Virus record (IMG/VR): IMGVR_UViG_3300006854_000042
Coordinates: 1-31,166 of that record
From: a virus
Strand: one strand, 5' to 3'
DNA: 31,166 bases
Positions 14,319 through 30,741 of this stretch are shown here, piece by piece. Position 1 is the stretch's first letter. Each line of letters begins with the position of its first letter. The translations under genes were made by a program, and so were the position numbers. The notes beneath the pieces were generated by a model. It worked only from the letters and a program-made list of their open reading frames with translations, did not search any database and was not told the origin of the DNA.

Positions 14319-15215
14319 TCAGATGCTCGAGCCGTACACGCCGCGGGGGTCGGTCCAGCCGGAGCTGAACCGCTGGTAGCCCGAGTACGTGATGGTCAGG
14401 TTGTCCTCGGTGTTGTGGTCGCGGAACGTCGGCTTCTGCCGCCACACGTGGCGAAGGCCGTTGTCCGCGTCGCTCACCGCCCACCAGTTCGTGGTGCTGG
14501 TGAAGTACGGGTTCTCGGCGATCTCGATGCCCATGCCCTTGAGCACGTTCACCGCGTTGTTCGCCGTGTCGTTCTGCTGCTCCGACTTCAGGATCCGATT
14601 CGCCCGGAACCAGAGGTCGGTCGGCACGACCAGCTTCTTCAGCATGTAGCCGCGGAGCAGGCCGTTGGAGCTCGGCAGCTTGCGCATGTTGGTGCGCATC
14701 TGCTCGACGGCGGTCTCGCTGAGCGACATCGGCGTCGCGAGCGTGTTGGAGTACGTCCCGCCCTTCGGCAGCTTGTGCGACGCCGAGCAGAGCGCGACGC
14801 CATCCGCGCCCACGAACGTGGACGAGAACGCGTTGATGAAGATGCCGGCGTTGATGTACTCCTGGGTCCACTTCGCCGACCTGGCGATGGCGCCCGTGCC
14901 GTCGATCGCCTTGTCGTACTTCTTGTCGGCGACCGCTTCCTCCGAGCAGACCAGCCGGAGCGCGAACGTGTTCATCGTGTAGCGCTTCGAGTAGCCCTGC
15001 TGGACGGAGTCGACCGCCATCATCGCGCCCTCTTGCTTGACGGGCATGATTCCGGTGCCGGCGTACTCCTGGTCGTCGATGTAGGCGTCCTTGGTCGAGG
15101 TGACCTTGAACCCGCACGCCTCCCACGCGAGCTTCCCCTTCATCTCGTCGCCCCAAACGACGTCGAGCGTGGGCTTGAGGGACGCGGAGATTGTCGAGAG
15201 CTTTACGAGACTCAT
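14319..15215 (-). CDS. Major capsid protein, HK97-fold type (298 aa)
   Basis: The protein fits the HK97-fold capsid class: an N-terminal helix (MSLVKLSTISASLKPTLDVV), a long E-loop-like region, and a central motif (about residues 120-170) with INAGIFINAFSSTFVGADGV, CSASHKLPKGG, and SNTLATPMSLSETAVEQM. The A-S-H/G-G/N-T-L pattern is common in Mu-gpT-like and podovirus capsid proteins. The C-terminus is beta-rich (DNLTITYSGYQRFSSGWTD). Length fits a mature capsid without a long scaffold domain. It lies in the canonical order terminase, portal, scaffold, decoration, capsid. The ATG at 15215 has a GGGGAT ribosome site; the longer frame upstream belongs to overlap with the previous gene. Confidence 0.85.
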   Translation of the reverse strand: MSLVKLSTISASLKPTLDVVWGDEMKGKLAWEACGFKVTSTKDAYIDDQEYAGTGIMPVKQEGAMMAVDSVQQGYSKRYTMNTFALRLVCSEEAVADKKYDKAIDGTGAIARSAKWTQEYINAGIFINAFSSTFVGADGVALCSASHKLPKGGTYSNTLATPMSLSETAVEQMRTNMRKLPSSNGLLRGYMLKKLVVPTDLWFRANRILKSEQQNDTANNAVNVLKGMGIEIAENPYFTSTTNWWAVSDADNGLRHVWRQKPTFRDHNTEDNLTITYSGYQRFSSGWTDPRGVYGSSI

Positions 15216-16468: not shown

Positions 16469-17375
16469 CGGCTGCTTTCGCCTTCATTGCGCGCTTGCCG
16501 ATGGCGTTCCACCACATCTTTCGGCCGGCGTCCTCGGACAGGTTCGGGTGGTACTTGTTCGCCCACTGGTCCGCGATGGCCTGCTGGTCCTCGTCGAGCT
16601 TCATCTCGGACTCGTGCTCGCCGCCGCCGGCGCCGTTCTTCCCCGACGGCAGCTCGAAGCGTTTCACGTTGCCGTTGGTGCGCCCGTTCGTTGGCATGCC
16701 GCCGAGCTGCAGCACCTGCGCAGCCCACGCGCACGCCGCGCGGAACGTCTCGTAGCTGCGCGGGTGTCCCTCGCCGACCATCTTGGCGATGCGGGCGTCG
16801 GCGACGGCGCGTGCTTCCGCGTCCGATCGCAACCACCTGAACTCGGACGCGAGGTCGGCGGCCATCGCCTGCGTTCCCGGGTCCATCTGGCTTTGCGACC
16901 ACGACTCGCGCTCCTTGGCCAGCTTGCGGTCGGCGCGCAGCTCGTCCATGTCCTCCAGCGTCTGGTGGTAGGCGTCAAGCTCGCGCTTCGCCGTCGCCGG
17001 GTCCTTCGACGCCGACGCCATCTCGAGGTGCCGGTCGCGCTTGTCCCGCAGTTCCTTCAGCCGCTGCTCGTACGGGTCCGTCGCGGGCTGCTGCCGCTGT
17101 TGCTGCGCCTGGACCTGCCCGCGCAGCTCGGCCAGCTGGACCTCGAGCGCCTGGCGTGCCTGCCGATCGCGCGCAGCCTCGGCGCGCAGCTCGTCCTGCT
17201 CCCTCTTGCGCGTGGCCATCCACTCGGCGCGGCGGGCCGCCCGGGACTGACGAGCTTCGGCGGCCGGCGACCCCGGCTCGGCGTCAGGCGACTCGGTTTC
17301 GGTCTCCGGCGCTTCTGGCTCCTCGGCTTCCGGCTCGGTCTCCTGCGATTCGGGTGCGGTGTCTTCCGTTGCCAT
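16464..17375 (-). CDS. Scaffolding-like protein (303 aa)
   Basis: The N-terminal 35 residues are extremely acidic (Glu/Pro/Thr-rich). A long charged coiled coil spans about residues 40-165 (Gln/Arg/Glu/Ala-rich, including QVQAQQQRQQ), and a compact basic C-terminus follows (WWNAIGKRAMKAKAAG). This acidic head, coiled-coil body and basic helical tail is the signature of internal scaffolding proteins, whose C-terminus docks to the capsid protein. Its place between portal and capsid genes agrees. Translation starts at the ATG behind a GAGGAGAAGGTGA site and overlaps the end of the GroES-like gene by 92 bases. Confidence 0.7.
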   Translation of the reverse strand: MATEDTAPESQETEPEAEEPEAPETETESPDAEPGSPAAEARQSRAARRAEWMATRKREQDELRAEAARDRQARQALEVQLAELRGQVQAQQQRQQPATDPYEQRLKELRDKRDRHLEMASASKDPATAKRELDAYHQTLEDMDELRADRKLAKERESWSQSQMDPGTQAMAADLASEFRWLRSDAEARAVADARIAKMVGEGHPRSYETFRAACAWAAQVLQLGGMPTNGRTNGNVKRFELPSGKNGAGGGEHESEMKLDEDQQAIADQWANKYHPNLSEDAGRKMWWNAIGKRAMKAKAAG

Positions 17376-17847
17376 TGCTCACCTTCTCCTCGTAGTAGTG
17401 CTCGCCTTCCTTGTCGTCGTAGGCGAGCGTGTGCGTGGTCCCGACCCGCTCCAAGGCGTCGACAGAGCCAAGTAGCTCGTCCACCTTGAGCTGGAGAATC
17501 TTCTTCCCAGTGTTCTCCGGGTCCCGGGCGAACTCCTCTTCCCATCCCGCGAACTGCCCGAACCACACGATGTCGCCGATCTCGATCAGGTGGTCCTTCA
17601 TCACGTCGAGCGCCTTTAGGCCCGCCGACACGAGCACGCCGCGGGCATCGGGCATCGCGGCCCCAACGGTCTCTCGGATGTTTCCCATGCCGTCCGTCGT
17701 CTTCTCGGTCCAGACCTGCGGGATCACGAGCCCGCCCGCCGTCAGCTTCTCGTTGGGGATGCGGAACACGAGCACCACCTTGTTTGCTGGCAGGTACGGC
17801 AGCTCGGGGATTCCGTACAGCTTGCGACGCTCGACGAGCTTGCTCAT
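17284..17847 (-). CDS. GroES-like co-chaperonin (187 aa)
   Basis: Residues about 22-133 match the Cpn10/GroES plan. NKVVLVFRIPNEKLTAGGLVIP holds the first strand and the mobile loop (T-A-G-G-L-V-I-P corresponds to S-A-G-G-I-V-L-T). An insertion at 45-67 precedes GVLVSAG. IGDIVWFGQFAGWEEEF corresponds to GDIVIFNDGYGVKSE, and ILQLKVDELLGSV corresponds to the final strand ending in DILAIV. Such proteins cap GroEL; phage examples such as T4 gp31 help fold the capsid protein. The location between portal and scaffold supports that role. The last 37 residues are polar and lie in the overlap with the scaffold gene; they are outside the core fold. No phage GroEL is visible. Confidence 0.8.
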   Translation of the reverse strand: MSKLVERRKLYGIPELPYLPANKVVLVFRIPNEKLTAGGLVIPQVWTEKTTDGMGNIRETVGAAMPDARGVLVSAGLKALDVMKDHLIEIGDIVWFGQFAGWEEEFARDPENTGKKILQLKVDELLGSVDALERVGTTHTLAYDDKEGEHYYEEKVSNGNGRHRTRIAGDRAGSRGARSAGDRNRVA

Positions 17848-18062
17848 TTGGTCACCTCGTTGGCGATGGCGATGGACTGCTCGTAGCCACGTACCTGACC
17901 GGCAAGCGTTGTCGCCCGGTGCGTGTCACCGGACCACATCATGTCGATGGTGTTCCCGCGACACTCGCTCAGGCGCTCCTCGAGCAGCGCCAGGTACGCC
18001 TGGGTGATGTCGCTGTCCCGCCACTCCTTGCGCTCGGCCTCGGTGTAGTCGAAGAACTTCAT
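17844..18062 (-). CDS. Small helical protein (72 aa)
   Basis: An all-helical, charged protein (MKFFDYTEAERKEWRDSDI) with a central LLEERLSECRGN and a C-terminal amphipathic helix. It is joined by ATGA overlaps to portal (upstream) and the GroES-like gene (downstream). Short helical genes after the portal are common in phages but have no single known function. No metal or DNA-binding motif is visible. Confidence 0.65.
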   Translation of the reverse strand: MKFFDYTEAERKEWRDSDITQAYLALLEERLSECRGNTIDMMWSGDTHRATTLAGQVRGYEQSIAIANEVTK

Positions 18063-20347
18063 GTGACCTGCCCGTTCTCGGCGCCGTTGGTGGGCGCCGG
18101 TCCGCCGTTGGGTACTCGCTTGGGCATCGGCACCGCCGGGCCCTGGGGTTGCGACTGGGGCTTCGCCGGCGGTGGATTACCGTTCGGGTTGCCCGCCATT
18201 CCCGGCGGCGCCAGGCCCATCGCCATCTTCTGCAGCATCTGGTCGAGCGCGGCGACGAGGTCAGGCCGGTCCATCGCCTTGAACAGCCCCTTCTGCGCCG
18301 CCGCGACGATGAGCGGGTCGGCCGCCGTGAGCGGGTTCGCCATCACCGCCTGCAGGGCAGTCTGCGCGTCGGCGATCCGCTGCGGCTGGCTGGCCATGCG
18401 GGGGTCGGCGGTCACGGTGATGTCCGTGTCCTGGAGGTAGTCCATCCGCGCGACGTGGTGCTCCTCGACGATGCCGGGCTTTGCCGGGTCGGTGACGTAG
18501 AAGTACTCGGCGTCACCGAGGTAGACGCTGTTGAGCCGCGCCAGGCTCCGCGCCTCGGCGGTGCGGCTGCGGGTGTAGCGCTTCGACAGGATGCCGATCG
18601 CGGCGAGCGCCTGGGAGATTCGGATCTGAGTGGTCGTCGCGGTCTCGTTCGAGCCGCCCACCTCGCCCGAGAGAATCTCCCCGGCGCCCGACAGCTCCTC
18701 GGCCTCTTCCTTCTGGTCCTTGATGACCTGGCCCATCGCCGGGTTCGGGCCCGGGAACGTGATCGGCAAGATGGCGTTCTTCATGTCCTGCGGCATGAGG
18801 TCCACCTCGACCCCCTGGCCCGGCTTCACCTTGAGGTCGCCGCGGGACAGCTTCGCGTGCTTCGAGTACAGGAACGTGTAGATGTTCGCGAGCGTGCCGG
18901 CGTCGACGAGCTGGGCCGCGATGGTGTCGGCCACCATGTTGTGCCCCTCGAGCAGGAAGCCGATGCCCCACCCCATGATGCCCTCGGGGTTCGGGATGCA
19001 CCGGTAGTGGGTGAAGAAGTTGATCGGCACCATCTTCGGCTGCGCCGGGTCGGGCGGCGGCTGGGGCGGCGCGGGTGGAATACCGGTCAACGTGCCCGTA
19101 GTTCCCCCCGGCGCGGGCGGCGCCGTCATGGTCGTCTCGCCGGGGGCCGGCGGCGTGGTCATCGTCGTGTCGCCCTGCATCGGCAGCGGCGTGGTGGTCA
19201 TCTCCCCCGGCACCGGCGGCGCCGTCACGGCCTGCTGCTGGCCGTAGTAGGCCTGCATGTCCATCCGCCACTTCATCACCGCGGCCTGGTACATGGCGTC
19301 GTTCGCCGCCTTCTCGCGGTTGTAGCGGGCGCGGTCGACGGGGTCCTCGTCCTCCCTCAGGAACACGCCGAGCACCATCTTGGTCTGCTTGTCGACGGCG
19401 GTGATGACCGGCCGCTGGCGGTCCTGGCCTTCGAGCTTGCACCAGTGGTGCTGTTCGAGGATTTCCCGCTGCCCCGTCGAGAGCGGCCGGCGGATGCCCT
19501 GCGCTTCGTCGATGACGTCCCTCATCGGGTGGTCGTTGTCGCGCGAGCTGCCGCGGGTCGTCTGGTCGACCTCCGACTCGGACTCCTTGTTCGCGTCCTC
19601 GTCGGCGTAGAGCTTGGCGACCGCCGCGGCGTCGTAGTAGCCGGTCGCGGCCATGTCTTCGAGCTCGTGCCGGGCGTACCGCAGGATGCGGGTGATGCAC
19701 GAGACGTTCGCCATGTGGGGGTCGTCGTCGTGCTCGGTATACGGCAGCACGATGTCCTCGGTGCGGCACGACTCGTGACACGGCCGGTTCTTCGCGGCGT
19801 TCCAGTACATGATCGAGAAGGCCGACCCGTACAGCAGCCACTGCATGATGAGGTTGTCGTGGTTCGGCGCGTACTCGGGGATTTGGTGCTCGACCTGCCA
19901 GTTGAGGTGCTTGGCCACCCGAATCGCCCGGTCGAGGTCGTCCTGATCGGTCGGCTTGACCCCGAAGAACTCCCCGCTCGACGGCAGCTGCTGGTCGTAG
20001 ATGCGCGCGTGCATCCTCAGCACCGCGGTCATGATGATCGGGTAGTGGACCCGCGCGTAGCCGAAGCCGTCGTCGGGCGCCGGCGGCAGCTGCCCGAGCG
20101 CGAGCCGCATGATCGACGCCCGGCGCTCGCGGTACTTCGCCATCCCCTGCCAGTGGTCGTCGAACCGCTTGCACACGTCCTCGCCGTACTTGGCCAGCGC
20201 CTCGGGGGACAGCGTCGGCACGAGGTTCACCGTCTCGGGCGCGGACCCGGCGGTCGTCTCGTCGAGGGACGGCGGTGGTGGCTCGGCCATGTCCTCGACG
20301 GGGTTGTCGGTCGGCTCGGGCTCGTCGGTCGTCGGCGGGTACGTCAT
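18059..20347 (-). CDS. Portal protein with internal Pro/Thr repeat (762 aa)
   Basis: The size matches the large podovirus portals (P22 gp1 is 725 aa). The N-terminal helical wing includes DDHWQGMAKYRERRASIMRL; a region of conserved GFGYARVHYPIIMTAVLRMH follows. The stem/clip region includes IPNPEGIMGWGIGFLLEGHN, and a helical crown runs to the C-terminus with a Pro/Gln/Gly-rich tail. The portal is the dodecameric ring for DNA entry and the terminase docking site. Residues 376-419 hold four 11-residue Pro/Thr repeats (separate entry). The ATG at 20347 overlaps the upstream TGA (ATGA), so the longer frame further upstream is not used. Confidence 0.85.
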   Translation of the reverse strand: MTYPPTTDEPEPTDNPVEDMAEPPPPSLDETTAGSAPETVNLVPTLSPEALAKYGEDVCKRFDDHWQGMAKYRERRASIMRLALGQLPPAPDDGFGYARVHYPIIMTAVLRMHARIYDQQLPSSGEFFGVKPTDQDDLDRAIRVAKHLNWQVEHQIPEYAPNHDNLIMQWLLYGSAFSIMYWNAAKNRPCHESCRTEDIVLPYTEHDDDPHMANVSCITRILRYARHELEDMAATGYYDAAAVAKLYADEDANKESESEVDQTTRGSSRDNDHPMRDVIDEAQGIRRPLSTGQREILEQHHWCKLEGQDRQRPVITAVDKQTKMVLGVFLREDEDPVDRARYNREKAANDAMYQAAVMKWRMDMQAYYGQQQAVTAPPVPGEMTTTPLPMQGDTTMTTPPAPGETTMTAPPAPGGTTGTLTGIPPAPPQPPPDPAQPKMVPINFFTHYRCIPNPEGIMGWGIGFLLEGHNMVADTIAAQLVDAGTLANIYTFLYSKHAKLSRGDLKVKPGQGVEVDLMPQDMKNAILPITFPGPNPAMGQVIKDQKEEAEELSGAGEILSGEVGGSNETATTTQIRISQALAAIGILSKRYTRSRTAEARSLARLNSVYLGDAEYFYVTDPAKPGIVEEHHVARMDYLQDTDITVTADPRMASQPQRIADAQTALQAVMANPLTAADPLIVAAAQKGLFKAMDRPDLVAALDQMLQKMAMGLAPPGMAGNPNGNPPPAKPQSQPQGPAVPMPKRVPNGGPAPTNGAENGQVT
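19091..19222 (-). repeat. Four 33-bp tandem repeats inside the portal gene
   Basis: In the portal frame the segment reads as four exact-length 11-residue units: APPVPGEMTTT, PLPMQGDTTMT, TPPAPGETTMT, APPAPGGTTGT. The DNA units are diverged 33-mers. Directly after it (19079-19090, minus strand) lies TTGACCGGTATT, the motif found in the regulatory regions. The repeat forms a flexible extended linker in the protein. Confidence 0.75.
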
Positions 20348-20622
20348 TCGCTGAGCACTCCATCCTTGACGATCAGGTCGCAGCGGAGGCCGAGGTGGCC
20401 GACGTGGGTGAGCAGCATCTTGGCCAGGTTTTCCACCTGCCGTCCGTTGCACACGAGCGTCGACTTTCCGATCGTCACGAATACGGTTCCCGTCGACCTG
20501 TCAGACCGCGACTTGGCCAACACCTGAATGGCGTCAACCTTCTCGTCGCCGAACATAGGCCTGAGGCCCCCGTACAGCTTGCACTCGTGCACGTCACCCT
20601 CGAATGCTCTGCGCTCGTTCAT
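20344..20622 (-). CDS. Small protein between terminase and portal (92 aa)
   Basis: The ATG at 20622 overlaps the terminase TGA as TGATG, and the gene ends in ATGA overlap with portal. The protein has alternating strands and helices (VFVTIGKSTLVCNG, VENLAKMLLTHVGHLGLR) and reads as a compact alpha/beta domain. I do not recognise a family. It is not acidic or coiled, so a scaffold is unlikely. Position suggests a packaging or head role. Confidence 0.6.
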   Translation of the reverse strand: MNERRAFEGDVHECKLYGGLRPMFGDEKVDAIQVLAKSRSDRSTGTVFVTIGKSTLVCNGRQVENLAKMLLTHVGHLGLRCDLIVKDGVLSE

Positions 20623-22181
20623 CACCACATCCCCGGGTAGCCCATGCGGCCACCGCGTGCGTTGTTGCTGCGCTTGGCGCGCAGTCGTTCCAGCTCGTCG
20701 ATGTCGTCGAGGGGCGCGTCGGCGCTCTCGGCCTTGAGCGGGCGGCTCATGCAGGCGTAGCTGGCCGAGTCGTAGTCGTGGTCGTCGGCGTCCGTGTCCG
20801 GCACGTCCGGATCATTCTTGTCCGCCGGCAACCGCGGCAGCGTGACCACCGGCCCCGTGCGTCCGTTCTTGCCGTCCGCCGTCCAGCAGGTGTTGAACCA
20901 ACGGATGCCCGGCACGCACATCAGCGGCTTCTTGTCCTTGCCCAGCAACGTCGGGTGCGCGCTGCGCTTCATGAGGCGCTGGCGCATCTGGTCCGCGGCG
21001 GCGTGGCGGTCCTTGGTGCATTTGAACCAGCCGACCCCGATCTGCTGCATCGTCTCGGCGATGCTCGGGCCGATGGTCCCTGTCGTCGCCCAACACGAGG
21101 AGTCGAGCGGGCCGGTCAGCTTCGACATCCCGCGCTCGACGTCCCACTCGTCGGCGGCCATCTCGACCTCTTTGATCCGGTACGCCAGCATCTCCGCCGT
21201 GTGCTTCCGGACGGTCATGCTGCGGTAGCAGACGAGGTTGCCGTCGGCGTCGACCGCCCACCACTGAATCGACGAGTGCGCCGAGTACCCGTAGTCGCCC
21301 GAGCGGAACTTGTACCAGTTGCTCGGGATCTTGAACGGCTTGCAGAAGTGGACGTCGGGGTCGAGTTCCTCGGAGAAGAACGCGCCGTGAATGTGGTCCC
21401 AGCTTCCTTCGAGCAGCTGCTTGCGGATGGCCACCGAGTGCGACGAGAGCGTGGCGGAGTACTGGACCGGGTCGGCGCTCTTGTTGTCCTGCACCTTGGC
21501 GGGAACGAAGATCTGCTTTCGCTCGACCACCTCTTCTCCAACGACCTCGTGGTTGTCGTTGTAGACCTTGACCTTGATGCGCCGAATGACCGGCGTGTTC
21601 GGCGGTGCGATGTCAACGAAACGCCGCTTGACCCACCCGACGCCGATGCCCACCGGGTTGGTGCCGGCGCGCATGTAGAGCATGTTCTTGAGTACGGGGT
21701 CCTTCGACCGGAGCCAGCTGTCGATCCAGTCGAACTGCTCCTCGGTGAACGTGGTCAGCTCGTCGAAGATCACCTCACTGAACTGGAAGCCCTGGTACTT
21801 GCGCCAGTCCCCCTCTTCCTCCATCTGGCCGAACATGTACTTGTAGCCACACGGAAACGTCCACGTCTTGTCGACCGCCGACCAGTCGACGCCGGGCGCG
21901 ATGGCCTCAAAGTCTGCGAAGCAGCGATCCATCACCTCGCGCAGCTCGGGCATCGTGCGCCGGAAGAAGATGGAGCGGCCGGTGGACGCCCCACGCGGGA
22001 GAAAGTGGGGATGGTCCTCGGGCAGTTCTTGCCGGCTGGTCTCGATGAGGATCTGCCGGAACGGATCGAACCGCAGCACCTCGGTCTTGCCACCGAACGC
22101 CGCCCCGCCGTAGAGCGCGTACCGCCCATCGAAGGACATGAAGCGCTGTTGAGCGCCGGGGTGGGGGCGGAACGCGATCAC
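20622..22181 (-). CDS. terL: Terminase large subunit (519 aa)
   Basis: This is the ATPase-nuclease motor that packages DNA through the portal. The ATPase domain has a Walker A-like GGAAFGGKT at residues 25-33, a coupling-type RRTMPELRE near 74-82 and a Walker B VIFDELT at 137-143. The nuclease domain shows GDYGYSAHSSIQWWAVDADG near 295-314 (Asp296), and a late acidic motif, DDHDYDSASYA, near 475. The start is a GTG at 22181 overlapping the upstream TGA (GTGA); the apparent N-terminal extension is read-through of the previous gene. Length is typical for the family. Confidence 0.92.
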   Translation of the reverse strand: MIAFRPHPGAQQRFMSFDGRYALYGGAAFGGKTEVLRFDPFRQILIETSRQELPEDHPHFLPRGASTGRSIFFRRTMPELREVMDRCFADFEAIAPGVDWSAVDKTWTFPCGYKYMFGQMEEEGDWRKYQGFQFSEVIFDELTTFTEEQFDWIDSWLRSKDPVLKNMLYMRAGTNPVGIGVGWVKRRFVDIAPPNTPVIRRIKVKVYNDNHEVVGEEVVERKQIFVPAKVQDNKSADPVQYSATLSSHSVAIRKQLLEGSWDHIHGAFFSEELDPDVHFCKPFKIPSNWYKFRSGDYGYSAHSSIQWWAVDADGNLVCYRSMTVRKHTAEMLAYRIKEVEMAADEWDVERGMSKLTGPLDSSCWATTGTIGPSIAETMQQIGVGWFKCTKDRHAAADQMRQRLMKRSAHPTLLGKDKKPLMCVPGIRWFNTCWTADGKNGRTGPVVTLPRLPADKNDPDVPDTDADDHDYDSASYACMSRPLKAESADAPLDDIDELERLRAKRSNNARGGRMGYPGMW

Positions 22182-22654
22182 GCCCGCATGACCTCCAGCG
22201 AGACCTTCCACTTCCCGATGGTCCCGGGCACGTCGGTCAGGTTCAGCTGGCCGTAGAGCGACGACGCCGACCACGACACGCTGAAGCCGACGAGGGACGC
22301 GGTGCTCATGTTCGCCACGCTCACGTCACCGGCCACGGTCACCGTCGTCCCGCTGCGCACGAGGAGCGCCTGTCGCAACCACGCGGCGCCGTCACCCGCG
22401 GCGGACGTCGCCGTGACGAAGCAGGTCGCGAACCACGTGTCGTCGGTGCTGAGCTGCGCCTGCCAGGCGATGTGGGCCGCGCCGTCCCCGGGCGTCGTGA
22501 ACTGGAACGCCGTCTTGTAGGTCGCCGTGACCAACTGGCGGTGCTGGTTGACGAGCTTGATCAACTCGTCGCGGTCCGAGCGCCCGTCGTGGATTGCCGG
22601 ACGGGACAACGTCGCCGGCAACGTCGTGAACGTGTACGGGGTCGACGTGCTCAC
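22178..22654 (-). CDS. Virion-block protein of unknown function (158 aa)
   Basis: Starts with GTG at 22654 in GTGA overlap with the upstream gene and ends in GTGA overlap with terL. An N-terminal helical part (RSDRDELIKLVNQHRQLVTA) is followed by a beta-rich Thr/Ser/Ala part (WFATCFVTATSAAGDGAAW). This helix-then-beta-sandwich arrangement is seen in some structural phage proteins, but no family is recognised. It is unusual to have such a protein directly before terL. Confidence 0.6.
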   Translation of the reverse strand: MSTSTPYTFTTLPATLSRPAIHDGRSDRDELIKLVNQHRQLVTATYKTAFQFTTPGDGAAHIAWQAQLSTDDTWFATCFVTATSAAGDGAAWLRQALLVRSGTTVTVAGDVSVANMSTASLVGFSVSWSASSLYGQLNLTDVPGTIGKWKVSLEVMRA

Positions 22655-23007
22655 TTGCTCTCCACGTCGATCACGACCGCCTCGATGGCGTCCTTCGCCT
22701 TCTCGGGCAACTGGATCGTCATGTTCTGGACGTTGACGGTGGTCTTGGTCTTCTCGGCCTGCCCCTTGATGAGCGCCTCGACACGCCTTGCGGCTACCTC
22801 AATGGCATACGGCACGGACTTCTTCGGCTCCTCGAAGGCGCGGGCAATCCGTCGCTGCCGGGTGGTCAGCTTCGCGGCGGCAAGCTCGTCGTCGCCCTTG
22901 AACGCGTGCTGCTCCAGGTCGACGATGGCGAGGTCACGGCGTAGGCGGCGCTCGATGCGCTCGCGGATCTCGCCGTGGACGTCGCGCTTGGCGAGGGCGT
23001 CAGGCAT
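22651..23007 (-). CDS. Possible terminase small subunit (118 aa)
   Basis: Starts at the ATG 23007, which overlaps the upstream stop by eight bases. The N-terminal half is strongly charged and helical (IRERIERRLRRDLAIVDLEQ), with LTTRQRRIARAFEEPKKSVP in the middle. That resembles the helix-turn-helix leader of small terminases. The C-terminus is TVNVQNMTIQLPEKAKDA, like the beta-strand tail that oligomerises in some small terminases. The position one gene before terL, plus size and charge, supports the idea, but no family match was possible by eye. An unrelated DNA-binding protein is the alternative. Confidence 0.45.
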   Translation of the reverse strand: MPDALAKRDVHGEIRERIERRLRRDLAIVDLEQHAFKGDDELAAAKLTTRQRRIARAFEEPKKSVPYAIEVAARRVEALIKGQAEKTKTTVNVQNMTIQLPEKAKDAIEAVVIDVESK

Positions 23008-23441: not shown

Positions 23442-23746
23442 TGCCCCTCCGTTTCGCGCGCCTTCAGCAACCCGTCGTCGATGGCCTTGTAGACATCCGT
23501 GAGCAGGCGGCCCGGGAACTCTCCGAGCACGACGCTCACCGGCTGCATCGGCGCGAGCTGCGACACCTTGCCGCCCGTCGCAACGAGCAGCACGGCCAGC
23601 GACTTGGCGCCCGTGTCGTCGTCGACGTGAATCATCGGCTGCAGCCCCACACCGAGCAGGCCGTACCCCTCGCCGATGTCCAGGACGCGCACCGGCTGTC
23701 CGTTGCGGGCGGCGAGCGCCACCGGATTGTGCCTGTGGTCACCCAT
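23438..23746 (-). CDS. Hypothetical beta-rich protein (102 aa)
   Basis: The ATG at 23746 overlaps the preceding TGA as TGATG. The protein shows short strands (VRVLDIGEGYGLLGVGLQPM, LAVLLVATGG, VSVVLGEFPG) and a helical polar C-terminus. It looks soluble and cytoplasmic. I do not recognise it. The longer upstream frame belongs to the zinc-finger microgene in another phase. Confidence 0.6.
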   Translation of the reverse strand: MGDHRHNPVALAARNGQPVRVLDIGEGYGLLGVGLQPMIHVDDDTGAKSLAVLLVATGGKVSQLAPMQPVSVVLGEFPGRLLTDVYKAIDDGLLKARETEGQ

Positions 23747-23910
23747 CACGACGCCTTTCGCTTCTCGCGGTACCGGGCCATCCGCTCCGCGTGCTCCGCG
23801 GCGTGCTTCTCGCAACGGAAGTCGCTACCCGTGAGCGTTTTGCAGCCCGGGTAGACGCACTTCGCTTCGTTGCGCCGCTTTTGCTGGTGTCGAAGTTGCT
23901 TCGCAGCCAC
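23746..23910 (-). CDS. Zinc-finger microprotein, first gene of leftward operon (54 aa)
   Basis: A short gene below normal length cut-offs. GTG at 23910 (or the GTG immediately before it) begins a Lys/Arg/Gln-rich N-terminus, followed by CVYPGCKTLTGSDFRCEKHA and a charged helix rich in Arg and Glu (RMARYREKRKA). The C-x4-C ... C-x-x-H arrangement with a basic helix is a small zinc finger common in phage early genes. It ends in TGATG overlap with the next gene. No strong ribosome site is seen. It lies directly beside the divergent control region, so it could itself be a regulator, though that is inference. Confidence 0.65.
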   Translation of the reverse strand: MAAKQLRHQQKRRNEAKCVYPGCKTLTGSDFRCEKHAAEHAERMARYREKRKAS

Positions 23911-23936
23911 CACGTTTAAGCCCGTACTTCGCTTTC

Positions 23937-23966
23937 GTGGTATTGACCAGGACTGTGGTATTGACC
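23937..23966. promoter_or_regulatory. Tandem GTGGTATTGACC repeats in the divergent control region
   Basis: Two identical 12-mers occupy 23937-23948 and 23955-23966, 18 bp apart. They lie in an 86-bp gap between the leftward block (GTG near 23910) and the rightward six-gene operon (ATG 23997). The embedded TTGACC could act as a -35 element for rightward transcription, but no good -10 follows. A regulator bound to both copies is the simplest reading. Confidence 0.6.
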
Positions 23967-23996
23967 TGCGCGGGGGAATCAGCTAAGGGGCGAGGC

Positions 23997-24194
23997 ATGA
24001 CCAAGCAGCAGCACGACGCGCTCCGTGCCGGCGCCGATACCCTTCGATGGGTGCTCGCCATCATTCATCGCGAGTTCTGCGGCAAGGTCAGCGGCGTCGG
24101 ATGCGACGACTGCCCGGTCTGCAAGGGCATGTACGAGAAGGCGTACGCGATGGACGGAGTGCTGCACGAGCTGTTGGCCGAGGTGAAGCCATGA
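23997..24194 (+). CDS. Small cysteine-containing protein (65 aa)
   Basis: First gene of the rightward operon. An AAGGGG/GAGG purine site precedes the ATG. The protein is helical (MTKQQHDALRAGADTLRWVL) with a GCDDCPVCKGM segment, where C-x-x-C-x-x-C could bind zinc with an upstream FCGK. It ends in ATGA overlap with the next gene. No family recognised; a role in early takeover is inferred only from position. Confidence 0.65.
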   Translation: MTKQQHDALRAGADTLRWVLAIIHREFCGKVSGVGCDDCPVCKGMYEKAYAMDGVLHELLAEVKP

Positions 24195-24652
24195 CCATCC
24201 GGGACGACATCGCGAAGGGGCCGCGGTTCGAACTGGCCGGCGACGGCTACCGCGACCCGCTGAAGATTCCGTGCGTGGCCTGCTCGTGCGACGGCGGCAC
24301 GGACCGTTCGACCGGCCTCTGCCGCGCGTGCTGGCGGGCATGGCGGTTCGGGATGGCCATGATGGCGGCGCCGTACCTGCCGGCTGGAACTGGCGTCGAG
24401 CGGTTCACCTGCGCCGGTTGCGGGGGTCCACATCGACGCGAGGAATGCCCCGTTGAGAAGCTTCCGCAGATCGGACCATGGAGCGGCAAGCTGATCGAGA
24501 CGCAGATGACACCCGAGCAGATGGCGCGCTCCCGGTGCCCGTCGTGCGGCGCGTTCCCGGCGGGCACGCTCGAGGAGCGGCTACGGCACGAGCTCGGGCA
24601 CGGTGCGGACGGCGTGTACTGCCCGGACGCGTGGCACAAGGCCAAGCCGTGA
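24191..24652 (+). CDS. Zinc-ribbon protein (153 aa)
   Basis: ATGA start overlap at 24191. Three cysteine clusters are visible: CVACSCDGGTDRSTGLCRAC near residues 30-50, CAGCGGPHRREEC near 78-90, and CPSCGA near 120, each like a zinc knuckle or ribbon. Between them are helical linkers. This looks like a multi-zinc-ribbon nucleic-acid or protein-binding protein, but no known family is identified. It is the longest gene of its operon. Confidence 0.7.
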   Translation: MTIRDDIAKGPRFELAGDGYRDPLKIPCVACSCDGGTDRSTGLCRACWRAWRFGMAMMAAPYLPAGTGVERFTCAGCGGPHRREECPVEKLPQIGPWSGKLIETQMTPEQMARSRCPSCGAFPAGTLEERLRHELGHGADGVYCPDAWHKAKP

Positions 24653-24858
24653 AGCGCGAGCCCCGCACCGAGTTCACGATGGACGGCAGCCCGCACTACA
24701 CCGGACTCGAGGACTGCTGCGGTCTCGGCGTGCACAAGGGCTGCGGCGGCGTGATCCATCGCGAGTCGGTCTACGGCCCGTCGTTCATCTACGAGTGCGA
24801 CGGCTGCGACGTGTGCGAGACGGGGAACGGCTCGATGCCAGAGACGGAGGACGCATGA
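24649..24858 (+). CDS. Small zinc-ribbon-like protein (69 aa)
   Basis: Starts at GTG 24649 (GTGA overlap with the previous stop). Sequence features: DCCGLGVHKGCGGVIHRESV and YECDGCDVCETG, giving two paired cysteine/histidine sets that could hold one zinc ion. The protein is acidic at the C-terminus. Similar small zinc-ribbon proteins are common in phage early operons, with unknown functions. Confidence 0.65.
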   Translation: MKREPRTEFTMDGSPHYTGLEDCCGLGVHKGCGGVIHRESVYGPSFIYECDGCDVCETGNGSMPETEDA

Positions 24859-25088
24859 AGTACCTCGACCCCAAGTTCAGCTCGCGGCCGGCGAGCAAGG
24901 CGTACCGGGACAACTGGGACCGGGTGTTCGGGCGGCCCGACGGCATCACGCTCACTCGCCCGGGGATTGGGCCATCGACGTGGGAAGGGTCGGTCAGCGA
25001 GCCCCGTCCGGCGCTGCAGGGAACGACCAAGCGCGAGGTGGACCAAATCCTCGGCCGGCCCAAGAAGCCACGGAGGCGGAAGCCGTGA
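24855..25088 (+). CDS. Small hypothetical protein (77 aa)
   Basis: ATGA overlap sets the start. The N-terminus MKYLDPKFSSRPASKAYRDN then WDRVFGR is of a type I associate with tiny conserved phage proteins (D-P-K-F ... Y-R-D-N). The rest is Pro/Gly/Arg-rich and ends in a very basic tail (RPKKPRRRKP), which could bind nucleic acid. No cysteines. Function unknown. Confidence 0.6.
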   Translation: MKYLDPKFSSRPASKAYRDNWDRVFGRPDGITLTRPGIGPSTWEGSVSEPRPALQGTTKREVDQILGRPKKPRRRKP

Positions 25089-25372
25089 GCCTGCGCGACC
25101 ATCCGGACTTCGCTGCCTGGACCGAGGCGGGCCATTGCTGGACCTGCGGCGGGGTCGTCGTCGCCTACTTCGGGGACAGCCTCAACTACCCGCCCGAGCG
25201 CGAGTTCCCGGGCCGCCCCTCGTGGCCCGACTGCTGCCTCGTGAACCTGTACGACGGCGGCCTCTACAGGCGGTGCAAGGAAGATGTGGCCAGGGAGCGG
25301 GCGTACTGGGCGTCGGCCGCCGGGAGAGCCGAGGAGGCGGTGTGGCTCACGTACCTCAGCGCGCAGCGATGA
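25085..25372 (+). CDS. Small hypothetical protein with a CxxC (95 aa)
   Basis: GTGA overlap sets the GTG start. Contains WTEAGHCWTCGGVVVAYFGD, then PDCCLVN and RRCKED, so four to five cysteines could bind one zinc. The C-terminal half is helical. No family recognised. It follows the translational-coupling pattern of the operon. Confidence 0.6.
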   Translation: MSLRDHPDFAAWTEAGHCWTCGGVVVAYFGDSLNYPPEREFPGRPSWPDCCLVNLYDGGLYRRCKEDVARERAYWASAAGRAEEAVWLTYLSAQR

Positions 25373-25587
25373 CCGTGACGGACGAATCCCTTTCCGACCT
25401 CCGAGTCCGCCTCGCGACGGAGTTCCCCTGGCTCGTCACCAGCCCAACGGCGCGGCGCCTGGCGGACATCGTCCTCGCGCTCGCCGGCAACTCCGAGTGC
25501 CTCGACTACGACGTGCTCGCCGAGGCCTGCCGGACCGTGGCCGTCGCGATGGGTCTCCCTGAAGCGCCGAGAGCCAGGGCGAACTGA
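25369..25587 (+). CDS. Small helical protein, last of rightward operon (72 aa)
   Basis: ATGA overlap start. The protein is helical with an amphipathic pattern (ESLSDLRVRLATEFPWLVTS, then ARRLADIVLALAGN). The C-terminal segment is Ala/Arg-rich. Function unknown. Immediately after its TGA begins the 0.9-kb motif-rich stretch without a convincing gene; no T-tract terminator was found. Confidence 0.6.
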   Translation: MTVTDESLSDLRVRLATEFPWLVTSPTARRLADIVLALAGNSECLDYDVLAEACRTVAVAMGLPEAPRARAN

Positions 25588-25599
25588 CCCGCGTCGGGT

Positions 25600-25624
25600 A
25601 ATTGCGGTCGGCTTGACCGGTATT
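25600..25624 (+). repeat. AATTGCGGTC-N4-TGACCGGTATT copy 1
   Basis: AATTGCGGTC (25600-25609), four variable bases, then TGACCGGTATT (25614-25624). The first half (GGTC) and second half (GACC) form an inverted repeat around the spacer. A second copy lies at 25945-25969. Likely a protein-binding site. Confidence 0.55.
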
Positions 25625-25669
25625 GGCGGAGTGCGGCAGAGGGCCCGAGGGGGTCATTTTGTGGGCGGG

Positions 25670-25793
25670 GATGTACACCCACACATCACCCACCCCCGGT
25701 CGCTGGGGGGATACCCCTGACTACACGGGGGTACACGCGACGACCAGTGTGTGTACGTACGGTGAGCGTATCGTAGAGCACATGGTGTACATC
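25670..25793. promoter_or_regulatory. Cluster of GTGTAC-type elements, including a 10-bp inverted repeat
   Basis: GATGTACACC (25670-25679) and its exact reverse complement GGTGTACATC (25784-25793) flank further GGGTACACG (25729-25737) and GTGTACGTAC (25751-25760) elements. The core TGTACA is itself a palindrome. The spacing is irregular. Operator cluster or origin iterons are possible readings. Confidence 0.4.
25693..25731. other. Alternating C and G runs
   Basis: CCCCC, GGGGGG, CCCC and GGGGG follow each other with short spacers. Each G run can pair with either neighbouring C run, giving mutually exclusive hairpins. This may act as an attenuator-like or DNA structural element; chance in GC-rich DNA is not excluded. 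Confidence 0.3.
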
Positions 25794-25944
25794 TCGCGCG
25801 CCACCTAACACCGCGTTCCTGCTGTGCATTGTGGGCGGTCCGCGCTCTCCAGTTGACGTAATCGCCCTTATCGGCACATTCAGTGATTACGGGCACTTGC
25901 GCGCGATTGGCGGAGGTTGGTGTACCGTTCAGTGCCTCGAGGCG

Positions 25945-25969
25945 AATTGCGGTCAAGCTGACCGGTATT
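25945..25969 (+). repeat. AATTGCGGTC-N4-TGACCGGTATT copy 2
   Basis: Same layout as the copy at 25600: AATTGCGGTC, four bases (AAGC), TGACCGGTATT, then CCC. The central GGTCAAGCTGACC contains GGTCA/TGACC inverted arms. The two copies lie 345 bp apart. Confidence 0.55.
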
Positions 25970-26030
25970 CCCGGCCGCCCGGTCGACACACTGCTCACCA
26001 AAAGCCGGACCGTAGCGCCCGGGTTGTTGC

Positions 26031-26060
26031 GGAGCGCGCGGCGAGGTAGCTCCGCGCTCC
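26031..26060. repeat. 8-bp inverted repeat
   Basis: GGAGCGCG and CGCGCTCC are separated by 14 bases and can form a stable stem-loop. No T-tract follows, so it is not a standard terminator. A pyrimidine-rich tract follows on the plus strand. Confidence 0.4.
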
Positions 26061-26212
26061 CTGCCCCATCCCCATCCGCCCCCATCCGACCCGCCCTGCC
26101 CTGCCCAGTCCCGCCGCAGTCCTGTCGTCGGGCTTCCCTGCGCCGTTCCGGCTCCGGGTAGCGCCCTCGGCTCGCCCTACGTCGGCAGGTTAACTCCCGA
26201 AGTGACTACGGG

Positions 26213-26227
26213 GCTCGTCTGACGAGC
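26213..26227. repeat. 7-bp palindrome
   Basis: GCTCGTC-T-GACGAGC is a perfect inverted repeat with one central base, a shape typical for a dimeric repressor or recombinase site. Confidence 0.4.
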
Positions 26228-26292
26228 GCGCGAACCATGGGTAGCACGTGACGGTTTGCGGCACAAGGAGGTGGCTTACGGGAGTTGCGGTT

Positions 26293-26316
26293 GTGGTACT
26301 GACCGTGGTAACGACC
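26293..26316 (+). repeat. Tandem GTGGTACTGACC / GTGGTAACGACC
   Basis: Two directly adjacent 12-mers that match the divergent-region motif GTGGTATTGACC at eleven and ten positions respectively. They lie about 170 bp upstream of the HTH gene, so they may control it. Confidence 0.5.
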
Positions 26317-26483
26317 AGTGTGCGTGGGTTGCGGCTGTGACATAAGCCTGCGGCGTCAGCGGGCGGGCGCGGTGAGCAAGTCGGCAACGACGGGCCCGTG
26401 TCGCAGCCTGTTCCGGGCCTGGATGTGGGGCAACCCCTCCACGCTCGGCACCAGGGCAGGATCGGCCGCAACCCACGTGAACC

Positions 26484-26708
26484 ATGCCCTGGTCAGGTAG
26501 ACCCGCCGCTCGCAAGCCGCCACCGGGGCCTGCTGGGTGGTTCTCGGTGCGGGACATCGCGCGGTCGCTGCGCGTGCACGAGGACACGATTCAGGCGGCC
26601 ATCCGCGCGGGGCAGCTGGTGGCGTCGAAGGTGGGGCGGGCGTACCGGGTGTCGCCGGCGGCGCTCGACGCCTACTTGGCTTCGCGGTCGTCGTTGCCGG
26701 TCGATTGA
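26484..26708 (+). CDS. Excisionase-type helix-turn-helix DNA-binding protein (74 aa)
   Basis: Residues 20-68 match the HTH_17/MerR-like excisionase domain: FSVRDIARSLRVHEDTIQAA (first and recognition helices), then IRAGQLVASKVGRAYRVSP (wing) and AALDAYLAS (C-terminal helix). The pattern corresponds to L-T-V-E-E-V-A-x-x-L-G-V-S. Such proteins act as directionality factors or small transcription regulators. The ATG at 26484 gives a Pro-rich leader but no ribosome site; a GTG at 26547 preceded by GGGTGG gives 53 aa and may be the true start. The gene's end overlaps the facing minus-strand gene by 37 bp. It lies downstream of the repeat-rich region. Confidence 0.75.
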   Translation: MPWSGRPAARKPPPGPAGWFSVRDIARSLRVHEDTIQAAIRAGQLVASKVGRAYRVSPAALDAYLASRSSLPVD

Positions 26709-26872
26709 GCCGCCCACTCCTCCCTGAGGATGCAGGGTTCTTCGGCAGGCGTGAGCAAGCCGCCGCACTTCGGGCACCAGCCGATGCTCCCGTTAGGACC
26801 GCGCACGTGCCTGCACTCCCGCCGCGCCGCCTCTTGGTTGTACCTGCGCAGCTCCTCGACGTCTGGGTTCAT
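26672..26872 (-). CDS. Small zinc-binding-like protein (66 aa)
   Basis: Last gene of the leftward accessory block. ATG at 26872 in ATGA overlap with the upstream gene. Contains RRECRHVRGPNGSIGWCPKC and GGLLTPAEEPC, a C-x-H/C-x-x-C set that probably binds zinc. The N-terminus is helical. It ends inside the facing HTH gene. Function unknown. Confidence 0.6.
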   Translation of the reverse strand: MNPDVEELRRYNQEAARRECRHVRGPNGSIGWCPKCGGLLTPAEEPCILREEWAAQSTGNDDREAK

Positions 26873-27054
26873 TGCGCCAGCCTCCTGTTGACGAACACGA
26901 CCACGGCTCCAGCCGCGTAGCCTGCAGCCCACGCGAGAGCAGGGCATACGACAGCAGGCACAGACCCGGGCAGCAATCTCACGCAGGCCAACCCTGCCGC
27001 AGCGCCCGCTACCCCGGCAATCACCTTCAGCACAATCGCCCTGCGCAAGCTCAC
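26869..27054 (-). CDS. Two-helix membrane protein (61 aa)
   Basis: Starts with GTG (GTGA overlap with the upstream gene). Two hydrophobic segments, about residues 8-25 (VLKVIAGVAGAAAGLACV) and 33-54 (PAVVCPALAWAAGYAAGAVV), are separated by a short Pro/Gly loop. The N-terminus (SLRR) and C-terminus (NRRLAQ) are basic, suggesting both in the cytoplasm. The size and two-helix layout fit class II holins, but no endolysin is nearby. A membrane anchor or immunity protein is equally possible. Confidence 0.6.
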   Translation of the reverse strand: MSLRRAIVLKVIAGVAGAAAGLACVRLLPGSVPAVVCPALAWAAGYAAGAVVVFVNRRLAQ

Positions 27055-27290
27055 GACGCCAGCGCTCCAATCGGCATGCCCAGCACTCTCTCACGGTCCG
27101 TCGCGCCTCGCACCACCTGACCCACCGGCACGCGTGTACAGCGGCTGGCGTAGCGCCCTAGGCCCACTACGATTCGCACGGTGGCTACGTCCTCGACCAC
27201 GAGCAGCACCTTCGCCACCCTGGGCGGTCGCTTCCCTGGGTCGTGCCTCACGATTACGTGGTCGCCTACGTGGAGATCCATGGCTGTCAT
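27051..27290 (-). CDS. Small beta-rich protein (79 aa)
   Basis: AAGGAAGG lies about six bases before the ATG at 27290, one of the clearest ribosome sites of the block. The sequence MDLHVGDHVIVRHDPGKRPP, then VAKVLLVVEDVATVRIVVGL suggests a small SH3-like or KOW-like beta barrel, which could bind nucleic acid or protein. It is the first gene after a 400-bp gap, so it may head its own transcript. Function unknown. Confidence 0.6.
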   Translation of the reverse strand: MTAMDLHVGDHVIVRHDPGKRPPRVAKVLLVVEDVATVRIVVGLGRYASRCTRVPVGQVVRGATDRERVLGMPIGALAS

Positions 27291-27693
27291 TGGGTACCTT
27301 CCTTTCGCTTCCTACACCGCTACAACCCCCGTGCTCTCCATCTGAGCGCGGGTCCGGTCCCGGGGTCGCTGCCCACCCTGGTGGTCGGTTGCTGCTGTCC
27401 TGGGTGCCGGCCTGGCGCCTGCTAGCCCGAGGGGGTGCACGAGCGGCGACGCGTGGTCGTAGCCCCTGCACTCACTCGCGCCTCTGAGCGCTTACGGTGT
27501 TCCGGCTGATCGGGCCATGCCCCCACGGGCAATCGTCCAGCTTCCGGGGCTAACGGTGGTCCCCGGCGGCCGTGCGTTCCTGCACTGGACTTCCCGGCGT
27601 GGTCGTCACGCTTCGGCGGCGATTCCAGGGCCACAGGCCAGGTGCACATACGGGCCACCCGTGCCTCCCCTGTCGTTCGTCCGCTACGCAGAA
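27291..27693 (-). other. 403-bp stretch without a convincing gene
   Basis: A 91-codon frame (27422-27697) starts in perfect ATGA overlap with the upstream gene, but its composition is Arg/Pro/Gly/Ser-rich with no protein-like pattern. By my count about two thirds of its third codon positions are G or C, below the clear genes here. The stretch may be a decayed gene or a leader for the next gene. I see no terminator or consensus promoter. Confidence 0.4.
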
Positions 27694-27876
27694 TCATCGC
27701 GGCTTGATTGCCTTCCGCATTGCCCGGGCGAGCACGTTCCAGCCGCGCCCAACATCGGCATCGCTCTGCCGGTCTCGTAGACGTCCGGCGAGCTCCATCG
27801 CAGTTTCGGCGCGCAACCCAACTCGGACCAGCTTGCGACGGCCGTCGTCGTTCACGCGCTCGACGACCCAGGTCAT
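27694..27876 (-). CDS. Small basic helical protein (60 aa)
   Basis: The ATG at 27876 overlaps the upstream TGA as ATGA. The sequence starts with WVVERVNDDGRRKLVRVGLR, then a helix (AETAMELAGRLRD), and ends basic (ARAMRKAIKPR). No cysteines or membrane segment. Function unknown. The longer frame upstream is read-through of the DUF3307 gene. Confidence 0.55.
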   Translation of the reverse strand: MTWVVERVNDDGRRKLVRVGLRAETAMELAGRLRDRQSDADVGRGWNVLARAMRKAIKPR

Positions 27877-28928: not shown

Positions 28929-29131
28929 GGGGTCGCCTTTGGGTCGGGCAGCACGCGCTTGACGTAGCCCTGCTGTTCAATCGCCCACAGCGCGAAGTCG
29001 GACCCGTCGACGTAGAAGCGCCCGTCCTCTTCGATCAACGTCGCTGAGATGGGCGCCATGGCCAGTGTCTTTCGCACGGCGTCTACGCAACTTGGGTCCG
29101 TGTTCAAAAGCTCAACCTCTCGTCGGGGCAT
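28925..29131 (-). CDS. Small alpha/beta protein (68 aa)
   Basis: Starts at ATG 29131, inside the end of the previous microgene (20-bp overlap), with AAGGAG nearby. The sequence (VRKTLAMAPISATLIEEDGR, FYVDGSDFALWAIEQQGY) reads as a small alpha/beta fold. No metal or membrane motif. Function unknown. Confidence 0.6.
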   Translation of the reverse strand: MPRREVELLNTDPSCVDAVRKTLAMAPISATLIEEDGRFYVDGSDFALWAIEQQGYVKRVLPDPKATP

Positions 29132-29201
29132 CAGAACTCTCCTTGTTCTCGGCGGCAGCGTATGCGGCCCACATCTCCCGTACCAGCTCGTCCTCGGTCA
29201 C
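29112..29201 (-). CDS. 29-aa microprotein
   Basis: GTG at 29201 (GTGA overlap with the upstream stop) gives MTEDELVREMWAAYAAAENK then ESSDAPTRG. It is an amphipathic acidic helix. The gene ends 20 bp inside the next gene. It fits the operon pattern exactly and is too short for standard callers; it could also be a leader peptide that couples translation. Confidence 0.45.
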   Translation of the reverse strand: MTEDELVREMWAAYAAAENKESSDAPTRG

Positions 29202-29443
29202 GGCGCACCTCCAGTCGGCTGCGCTTCCTCTTCGACCACCGAAAACTGCTCGATGAAATCTGTCGATGCGCGAACGAATCCAGCCTTCACACCATCGAGG
29301 TAATCGCCGCCCGATCCGTCCTCTTCGTCGCTCACTACCGTCACGCGAAACCGTAGGCCGTCGGCGCAATGGGGACGTCCCAGCCATGAAGGGGTCGGCA
29401 ACACGAGCCACCGCCGTATCTGGCCAATCTGAAGCTTGCTCAC
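29198..29443 (-). CDS. Small hypothetical protein (81 aa)
   Basis: GTG start (GTGA overlap). Begins MSKLQIGQIRRWLVLPTPSW and contains LRFRVTVVSDEEDGSGGDYL, then an acidic C-terminus (FIEQFSVVEEEAQP). Likely a small beta domain of soluble type. No known family; position in the accessory operon only. Confidence 0.6.
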   Translation of the reverse strand: MSKLQIGQIRRWLVLPTPSWLGRPHCADGLRFRVTVVSDEEDGSGGDYLDGVKAGFVRASTDFIEQFSVVEEEAQPTGGAP

Positions 29444-29802
29444 CTCGCACCTCCAGTTGGCGGCGTCCCGTCGGTGGGTGGAGAGCGAAGGGCGCGGACG
29501 GCTTCGAGCGCGTCGTTGATCGCGTTTCGGTACCCGATGGCAGCGGCACCGCTCCCCCCGGGATCATGCGTACCATCGTCGATGGCCCGCTCCACATCTT
29601 CGAGCGCCGTCTCTCGCTCACGGGCCAGGGCGGCGGCGTGCTCGCGTTGGTTCCAGCGAAGCGCCTTGGCCTCGCTGAACGACGGTACGAACGGGCGCTT
29701 GGCGTCGGGCCCCTTGGCCCCGCAGTCGTTGCAATAAATCGCCGCACCGTGAGCCAGCATGAGGTTCGCTGACCCGCAGAACGGACACGGCAGCAGCTTC
29801 AT
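29440..29802 (-). CDS. Lar-like restriction alleviation protein (120 aa)
   Basis: Residues 1-54 match the Lar zinc-ribbon domain: MKLLPCPFCGSANLMLAHG, YCNDCGAKGP, then a helix ending in ALRWNQRE (C6, C9, C24, C27 bind zinc; a W-N-x-R follows). Lar of the Rac prophage modulates type I restriction so that incoming DNA is modified rather than cut. The remaining 65 residues are a charged helical extension (AALARERETALEDVERAIDD) and a Thr/Pro/Gly tail, longer than the family core. The ATG overlaps the previous stop region, and its stop overlaps the next GTG (GTGA). Many phages carry Lar-domain proteins; function is by family. Confidence 0.75.
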   Translation of the reverse strand: MKLLPCPFCGSANLMLAHGAAIYCNDCGAKGPDAKRPFVPSFSEAKALRWNQREHAAALARERETALEDVERAIDDGTHDPGGSGAAAIGYRNAINDALEAVRALRSPPTDGTPPTGGAR

Positions 29803-30741
29803 CTACCCGCCCTCCCCGCCGGGCGTCGGCTCTGAGGGTTGGGAGGCGGGCTTGCCGGTGCCGTTGCAGTCGTCGCAGGTGACCCATCGGAATGGCCAAG
29901 CGTAGCTTCCACCTCTGCCGCGACACCCGGGGCACTGCCGCCCCTCCCCGGTCCCGCTCCCCGCCGTGGGGGCGCTCGGGGGCTTGGCTTCGAAGTAGAG
30001 GCTCCTGGGGCAGCGCTCGCGCGTTCCGGCGTCCACCTCATCGCAGGCACAGGCCGGCGGCTCGTCGGGCCCACTCACCGGGGGAGGCATGGCGGCGATG
30101 GCGGCTCGGGCCATCGTGTCCCAGGCATCGCCCCTGCTTTCGCCGCGAATCAGAACGCGCGTCACCCGCTCGACCAGTGCCTCGCTCACCACGGGAGCGG
30201 GCGGGGCGGCTGCGTGGCCACCTGGGCACAGGTATCCGCACCACAGCCCTGCGGTGCAGTCGCGACAAGGCAGGAAGCATCCGCCACACTTCGGGCAGGG
30301 TCTGCCGGGCGCTGCCCCCTCGCGCGCTCCCGGCTCCGCGGTGCTCGGCGGGGCTGCCCATACTGCGGTCATCGTCCCGCCAGCGTAGGCAGTGACGGGG
30401 CGAGACGGTGACGCATTGGGCGGATTGGCGAACGTTCGATGCCCGCACCATGCCCGGTCACACGAGAACGCGAGGCGCCCGTCGATGGTGACTGCCCGCC
30501 CTTCGATGCCGAGGCACTTCTCGCACCGCGGCGGATTCGTGGGCGCGGTGCTCGGCGGGGAGGGGGCGCGGGCGGCATCGAGTGCCTTCAGGGCGTTGCT
30601 CGTCATCGCGACAGTCGGGTACCAGTCGCGCGCCGGGAACGTGGACCAGTGAATCACGGTCTCGACGTCGCCACGGTGGAGGCGCAACTCCTCCTTACCG
30701 TTGCCCCACTGTTCCAGCAACACCCCATCCTCGCGCTTCAT
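29803..30741 (-). CDS. Multi-zinc-motif protein (312 aa)
   Basis: The ATG at 30741 overlaps the upstream stop as ATGA. The N-terminus holds LLEQWGNGKEELRLHRGDVE. Zinc-like clusters follow: CEKCLG and CDRAWCGH near residues 75-103, CPKCGGCFLPCRDC near 140-155, CACDEV near 240, and CPGCRGRGG with CDDCNGTGK near 275-303, the last pair being DnaJ-type CxxCxGxG motifs. The stretches between them are Pro/Ala/Ser-rich and low in complexity, unlike the compact genes beside it. A second ATG inside (about 30372) could start a shorter product. Function unknown; nucleic-acid or chaperone-type binding is possible. Confidence 0.6.
   Translation of the reverse strand: MKREDGVLLEQWGNGKEELRLHRGDVETVIHWSTFPARDWYPTVAMTSNALKALDAARAPSPPSTAPTNPPRCEKCLGIEGRAVTIDGRLAFSCDRAWCGHRTFANPPNASPSRPVTAYAGGTMTAVWAAPPSTAEPGAREGAAPGRPCPKCGGCFLPCRDCTAGLWCGYLCPGGHAAAPPAPVVSEALVERVTRVLIRGESRGDAWDTMARAAIAAMPPPVSGPDEPPACACDEVDAGTRERCPRSLYFEAKPPSAPTAGSGTGEGRQCPGCRGRGGSYAWPFRWVTCDDCNGTGKPASQPSEPTPGGEGG

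Follow-up and report, generated by a model that had tools for sequence, protein, structure and literature searches.

A conserved ~120-bp DNA element at the head of the late region in a group of uncultivated phages, probably a packaging or control site

An intergenic DNA element of ~120 bp recurs at the head of the late region in a group of uncultivated bacterial viruses, largely temperate, with a single strong match in each genome searched. The window analyzed here, 31,166 bases long, is the entire record of one such virus (IMGVR_UViG_3300006854_000042). Its role is probably in packaging or control, and neither a hidden gene nor an attachment site is a likely account of it. The reading favored below, at a probability a little under 0.4, is that it is a packaging-initiation site, pac- or cos-like, where terminase starts; close behind, and likewise tentative, is a role in the control of late transcription. 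The stretch in which it lies had been picked out in an initial annotation as notable, with conservation in related genomes as a check, and the recurrence of the element agrees with this.

The gene-free gap and its surroundings

Late genes of the window span the minus strand from ~23.9 kb to base 1. The principal features, with the strand where there is one, are as follows.

5759–7198, minus: head closure, a late gene
14319–15215, minus: major head protein, a late gene
18059–20347, minus: portal, a late gene
20622–22181, minus: large terminase, the late-operon landmark (PHROG E 5.8e-30 for a longer frame; Pfam Terminase_6N E 1.1e-6)
22651–23007, minus: small-terminase candidate, by position
23937–23966, plus: a pair of GTGGTATTGACC repeats, 18 bp apart, that precede the mini-operon and may be an operator
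23997–25587, plus: antisense mini-operon, six small genes that separate the element from the late genes
25588–26483: gene-free stretch of 896 bases at the head of the late region, by coding scores and family searches
25600–25624: palindromic site, copy 1, 25 bp
25620–25741, minus (the late-gene strand): conserved ~120-bp element, by profile matches
25632–25643, minus: second core of the element, CCCTCTGCCGCA, the second most informative block
25655–25661, minus: A/T core of the element, CAAAATG, the most informative alignment columns
25705–25717, minus: G/C near-palindrome of the element, GGGGTATCCCCCC, from the sequence; a form common to L023, L024, and L025
25945–25969: palindromic site, copy 2, 25 bp, 345 bp from copy 1
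26293–26316, plus: a pair of abutting GTGGTA..GACC repeats that precede the HTH gene and may be an operator
26484–26708, plus: winged-HTH gene (Pfam HTH_17, E 4.1e-12, 46.6 bits, cut-off 27), Xis/BldC-like fold

By terminase, the closest cultivated phages are the HMO-2011-like podoviruses, at ~33–38% identity; searches of sequenced bacterial genomes brought no relatives of the terminase, the region has no DNA similarity to cultivated phages, and the window has no exact terminal repeat. Homologues of the small-terminase candidate lie about two genes before TerL in 12 phages; the candidate itself has no family match, and its model is weak (pLDDT 67), with an uninformative fold. A search with one mini-operon protein (24191–24652) gave no relatives. 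Two late-region genes are recorded in passing. A lone plus-strand gene at 7303–7680, within the minus-strand late operon, has by eye a lipoprotein-like start, and a similar small antisense gene stands between the same two late genes in G001 (L013 3578–3949) and G002 (L015 10270–10500); it is possibly expressed in lysogeny, for example as a superinfection-exclusion lipoprotein. The gene after the portal (17284–17847, minus) resembles a GroES co-chaperonin by eye, and in isolate vB_Af_QDWS535 a gene annotated as GroES stands at the corresponding place.

The initial annotation had described some 0.9 kb without a convincing gene, at a junction between facing operons and directly followed by an HTH gene, and this description holds: plus-strand genes (23997–25587) lie to the left, minus-strand genes ending at 26672 and continuing as small genes to the window end lie to the right, and the plus-strand HTH gene stands between. 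For seven ORFs in the gap (60–143 aa), coding log-odds range from −0.16 to −0.74 per codon and GC3 from 0.62 to 0.84, against +0.16 to +0.49 and 0.85–0.92 for the six plus-strand genes that precede it, and searches of PHROGs and Pfam with them gave nothing meaningful (best E 0.14 and 0.055, respectively). On these two grounds a hidden gene was rejected, and no convincing intact gene conserved across the gap, which the annotation had named as the finding that would count against it, came to light. The neighboring ORF at 26869–27054, perhaps a gene, scores likewise low (−0.48 per codon), so a very small gene could still be present in the gap. The gene caller used is a simple one that overlooks small early genes, and the term gene-free is not extended to 26709–27872 and 29060–30505.

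The same annotation saw the gap as a gathering of repeats of several kinds, which is true in part. The paired 25-bp palindrome and the GTGGTA..GACC repeats are real; most of the others are short two-copy repeats at chance level. The palindrome copies are the only exact CGGTC-N5-GACCG sites in the window, and among 25-mer repeats in the gap the best agrees at 21 of 25 positions, where shuffled sequences reached at most 19 (n = 200). The pattern occurs in no viral contig, and the palindrome was dropped as a family feature. GTGGTA..GACC occurs five times in the window, four of them within two intergenic regions preceding plus-strand genes. The palindromes and the GTGGTA..GACC repeats may be operators of the plus-strand genes. 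A pyrimidine-rich tract is also present, at about 26058–26116. Just before the HTH gene is a perfect 13-nt inverted repeat (26323–26335 and 26465–26477, 129 nt apart), with none seen in relatives. G001 has a 15-bp repeat (93%), once in its gap (L012 4515–4529) and once in the divergent region before its late genes (5472–5486), much like the GTGGTA..GACC repeats of the window.

The conserved element and its distribution among relatives

Relatives were gathered by terminase searches of viral contigs, and those mapped that reach far enough upstream mostly have a gene-poor gap of ~0.7–1.4 kb heading the late region. The one clear match from comparing gaps was that of the window to G001 (67.7% over 65 bases); a common layout was visible on reading the gaps of other relatives. 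Eleven segments were compared, from the window, G001, L032, L021, L025, L023, L024, L027, L029, L030, and G004. A profile made from the other ten finds the window element at 25735–25623 on the minus strand with E 8.4e-8 (27.2 bits), while its next-best match in the window has 0.9 bits and the best in 100 Markov-shuffled windows 7.7 bits; the full profile places the element at 25741–25620. When every segment was left out in turn and the whole available locus searched, the best match was at the expected place in all 11, with E ≤ 0.01 in seven and 0.07–2.5 in L024, L029, L021, and L027. Since the 11 segments were chosen for their likeness, it is the window score that carries weight, and not the count of 11.

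Read along the late strand, the window element consists of GGGGTATCCCCCC, ~45 bp, CAAAATG, ~20 bp, and CCCTCTGCCGCA. Its form across the group is a G/C-rich near-palindrome, a spacer of ~45 bp, a CAAAATT-like core, ~20 bp, and a CCCTTTGCCGCA-like core. L030 carries a G/C-block copy ~200 bp upstream of the other parts, which suggests that the parts may be modular. An 18-base pattern taken from G001, L021, and L032 is found in exactly those three among 2.9 million viral contigs.

In all 11 phages the element heads the late region in one orientation to the late genes, and the orientation is kept in G004 and L023 although their early genes face the other way. What follows it differs: the window, G001, L021, L025, and L032 have antisense genes interposed before the late genes, and in L027, L029, and L030 it comes immediately before the gene of the small-terminase candidate family. 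By eye, some antisense blocks include HNH endonuclease-like genes (L021 5156–5290, L025 1542–2057, L027 5052–5363, L032 1262–1732).

For an out-of-sample set, a portal search yielded 46 loci, of which 12 already used or overlapping were left out. Among the 34 tested, many too short upstream and some duplicates (L119, L120, L125), one had a match at E < 0.01: L144 (18.1 bits), again at the head of the late region. L111, L112, L130, L131, and L135, which have sufficient upstream sequence, gave no match. Once L144 joins the profile, L123, L134, and L146 have their best matches in their gaps and on the late strand, but at only 8.2, 3.0, and 4.9 bits. The HMO-2011-like podoviruses resemble the group in their terminase but differ in this respect, the element having turned up in none of the examined stretches of HMO-2011, Alcaligenes phage vB_Af_QDWS535, and Sinorhizobium phage phiM6. 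Judged from these sequences, its conservation is real yet patchy. A more distant relative of lower GC content, L034, has a weak match (4025–4106, 8.7 bits) within a 1.07 kb gap upstream of terminase, with, by eye, a strong hairpin right after it. No description of this element was found in the titles and abstract openings of the literature searched.

Possible functions of the element

The element probably acts as DNA. A structured RNA or leader would be expected to fold beyond what composition gives, and the elements of the window and L021 do fold somewhat better than their shuffles (z −1.77 and −2.65); the remaining nine z-scores run from −1.40 to +0.82, Rfam has no plausible match (none up to E 5 in one search, and at laxer limits implausible ones only, with E of 3.5 or worse), and this candidate, not supported, is quite improbable. 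Because RNA folding is ordinary, conservation is probably at the DNA level.

The initial annotation had also suggested a phage replication origin, and an A/T core next to G/C palindromes would suit one, as would the single intergenic copy and the paired repeats around it. The element has no replication gene beside it, however, and a switch of strand composition was not seen there: in the two complete genomes GC skew tracks gene class, with no consistent change where the element lies, the coding strand of G001 being positive in early genes and negative in many late ones, and the sign in G004 again following gene class. Skew thus lends the suggestion no support, and we consider an origin unlikely, although a shade less so than an RNA.

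An attachment site, attP, was another suggestion, and the excisionase-like HTH gene adjoining the stretch would be a natural companion for one. In relatives the integrase and the probable attP lie elsewhere. Tyrosine integrases occur in G001, G004, and five of 10 further records, with none within the window record, and those of G001 and G004 are ~10 kb from the gap element. Just past the G004 integrase is a tRNA 3′ piece whose anticodon loop is that of lysine (L100 633–696, 26.9 bits, E 0.002), ~10.7 kb from the element; in G005, to which L144 belongs, a similar tRNA-Lys piece lies at the integrase locus (L149 1237–1309, 32.8 bits); and G006 has a T-arm, by pattern alone. The pieces in G004 and G005 are probable attP sites. 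The same search found no tRNA-like core in the window gap, and no T-arm motif is present in any of the 11 gap regions scanned. For the family the attachment site is therefore rejected; of the readings considered it is the least credible.

The nature of the HTH gene bears on the possibility that the element is a late-transcription control site, bound by the Xis/BldC-like winged-HTH protein in a switch from lysogeny or early expression to late. The AlphaFold model of the window protein is a winged HTH (pLDDT 77), nearest in structure to Pukovnik Xis (the best PDB match, E 0.06, TM 0.58) and BldC, with no Foldseek match at E < 0.001. A profile search of nearby ORFs found the gene upstream of the element in 10 of 11 phages, L029 being the miss; four of the 11 built the profile, and the fair count is six of seven. 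Seven of these genes share the direction of the late genes, and those of the window, L027, and L030 oppose it. There is also precedent for a double role, as Apl of phage 186 serves as excisionase and as regulator (PMC7498355). The gap in G004 and L023 divides divergent early and late genes and so must hold promoters, and in L023 and L144 the element ends a few dozen bases from the first late start codon. This neighbor, its fold, and the divergent layout in some relatives are what favor a control site, and the initial annotation's "master switch" fares accordingly: the HTH gene and the early/late boundary suit a control region, but a packaging site suits the stretch at least equally well.

Several observations fit control of late transcription less well. 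Five phages have the block of antisense genes between element and late genes. A search of 23700–27400 found no sigma-70-like promoter, although sigma-70 may not be the pattern of the host. The half-site rule for BldC (PMC5859096) identifies BldC-type half-sites on the late strand in nine of 12 elements, the window's not among them; the two cores of the element are unlike each other, and the rule was not borne out in the window as an explanation of them. Gene and element also occur apart: L119 and L123 have HTH genes in their gaps and L131 has one too, with no element detected in L131 and L119, and L144 has an element with no HTH gene detected. Compared with the Xis, Apl, RdfS, and BldC systems, then, the likeness is in the fold and family matches of the neighboring protein, and the difference in the integrase and probable attP lying elsewhere and in the window element, where no BldC-type repeats were found.

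What favors a packaging-initiation site is where the element lies, how it is oriented, its occurrence as a single copy, and its toleration of inserted genes. A site of this kind should be single and head the terminase/late operon, as the element does in the 11 phages and L144, and it may tolerate antisense genes between itself and terminase, as a promoter should not. In the mechanism envisaged, the small terminase would bind the element, possibly assisted by the winged-HTH protein encoded alongside, and the large terminase would cut concatemers near it and package toward the late genes. The HTH proteins of the window, G001, L032, and L030 do have weak matches to small terminase (phrog_57, E 0.002 to 0.09), but excisionase families match them better. 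This nearness to excisionase counts against packaging, as do the positional basis of the small-terminase candidate, the single match at E < 0.01 among further loci, and the location of P22 pac elsewhere, within the TerS gene. A variant in which recognition is split, a free-standing Xis-type winged-HTH protein recognizing the ~120-bp packaging element and the small protein by the large terminase doing the remaining small-terminase work, is conceivable, if rather unlikely.

Comparison with known packaging sites and significance

Lambda cos (PMC4669245) spans ~200 bp and includes a partly symmetric cosN and a cosB to which TerS binds. Like it (cosQ-cosN-cosB, bound by gpNu1), the element is a single non-coding site heading the late genes, of similar size, with a partly symmetric G/C block and a further recognition block to one side. 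Unlike it, the element has genes inserted between it and terminase in five phages, has no known cohesive end, and assembles as circles: terminal repeats are exact over 127 bases in G004 and G005 and 163 of 164 in G001, making the assemblies circular through the element. This weakens the case for a fixed-end cos, and fits headful packaging, as with the pac sites of P22 and SPP1, or circular intracellular DNA. P22 pac is a 22-bp site within the TerS gene (PMC9611059), whereas the element is ~120 bp and intergenic.

For this uncultivated phage group, the element is a mapped cis-acting site with defined cores and a candidate partner gene. Two members also gain candidate tRNA-Lys attachment sites by the integrase, which could point to the host. 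If the packaging reading is true, the element would reveal which DNA gets packaged, and how such a site outlasts the insertion of genes before terminase.
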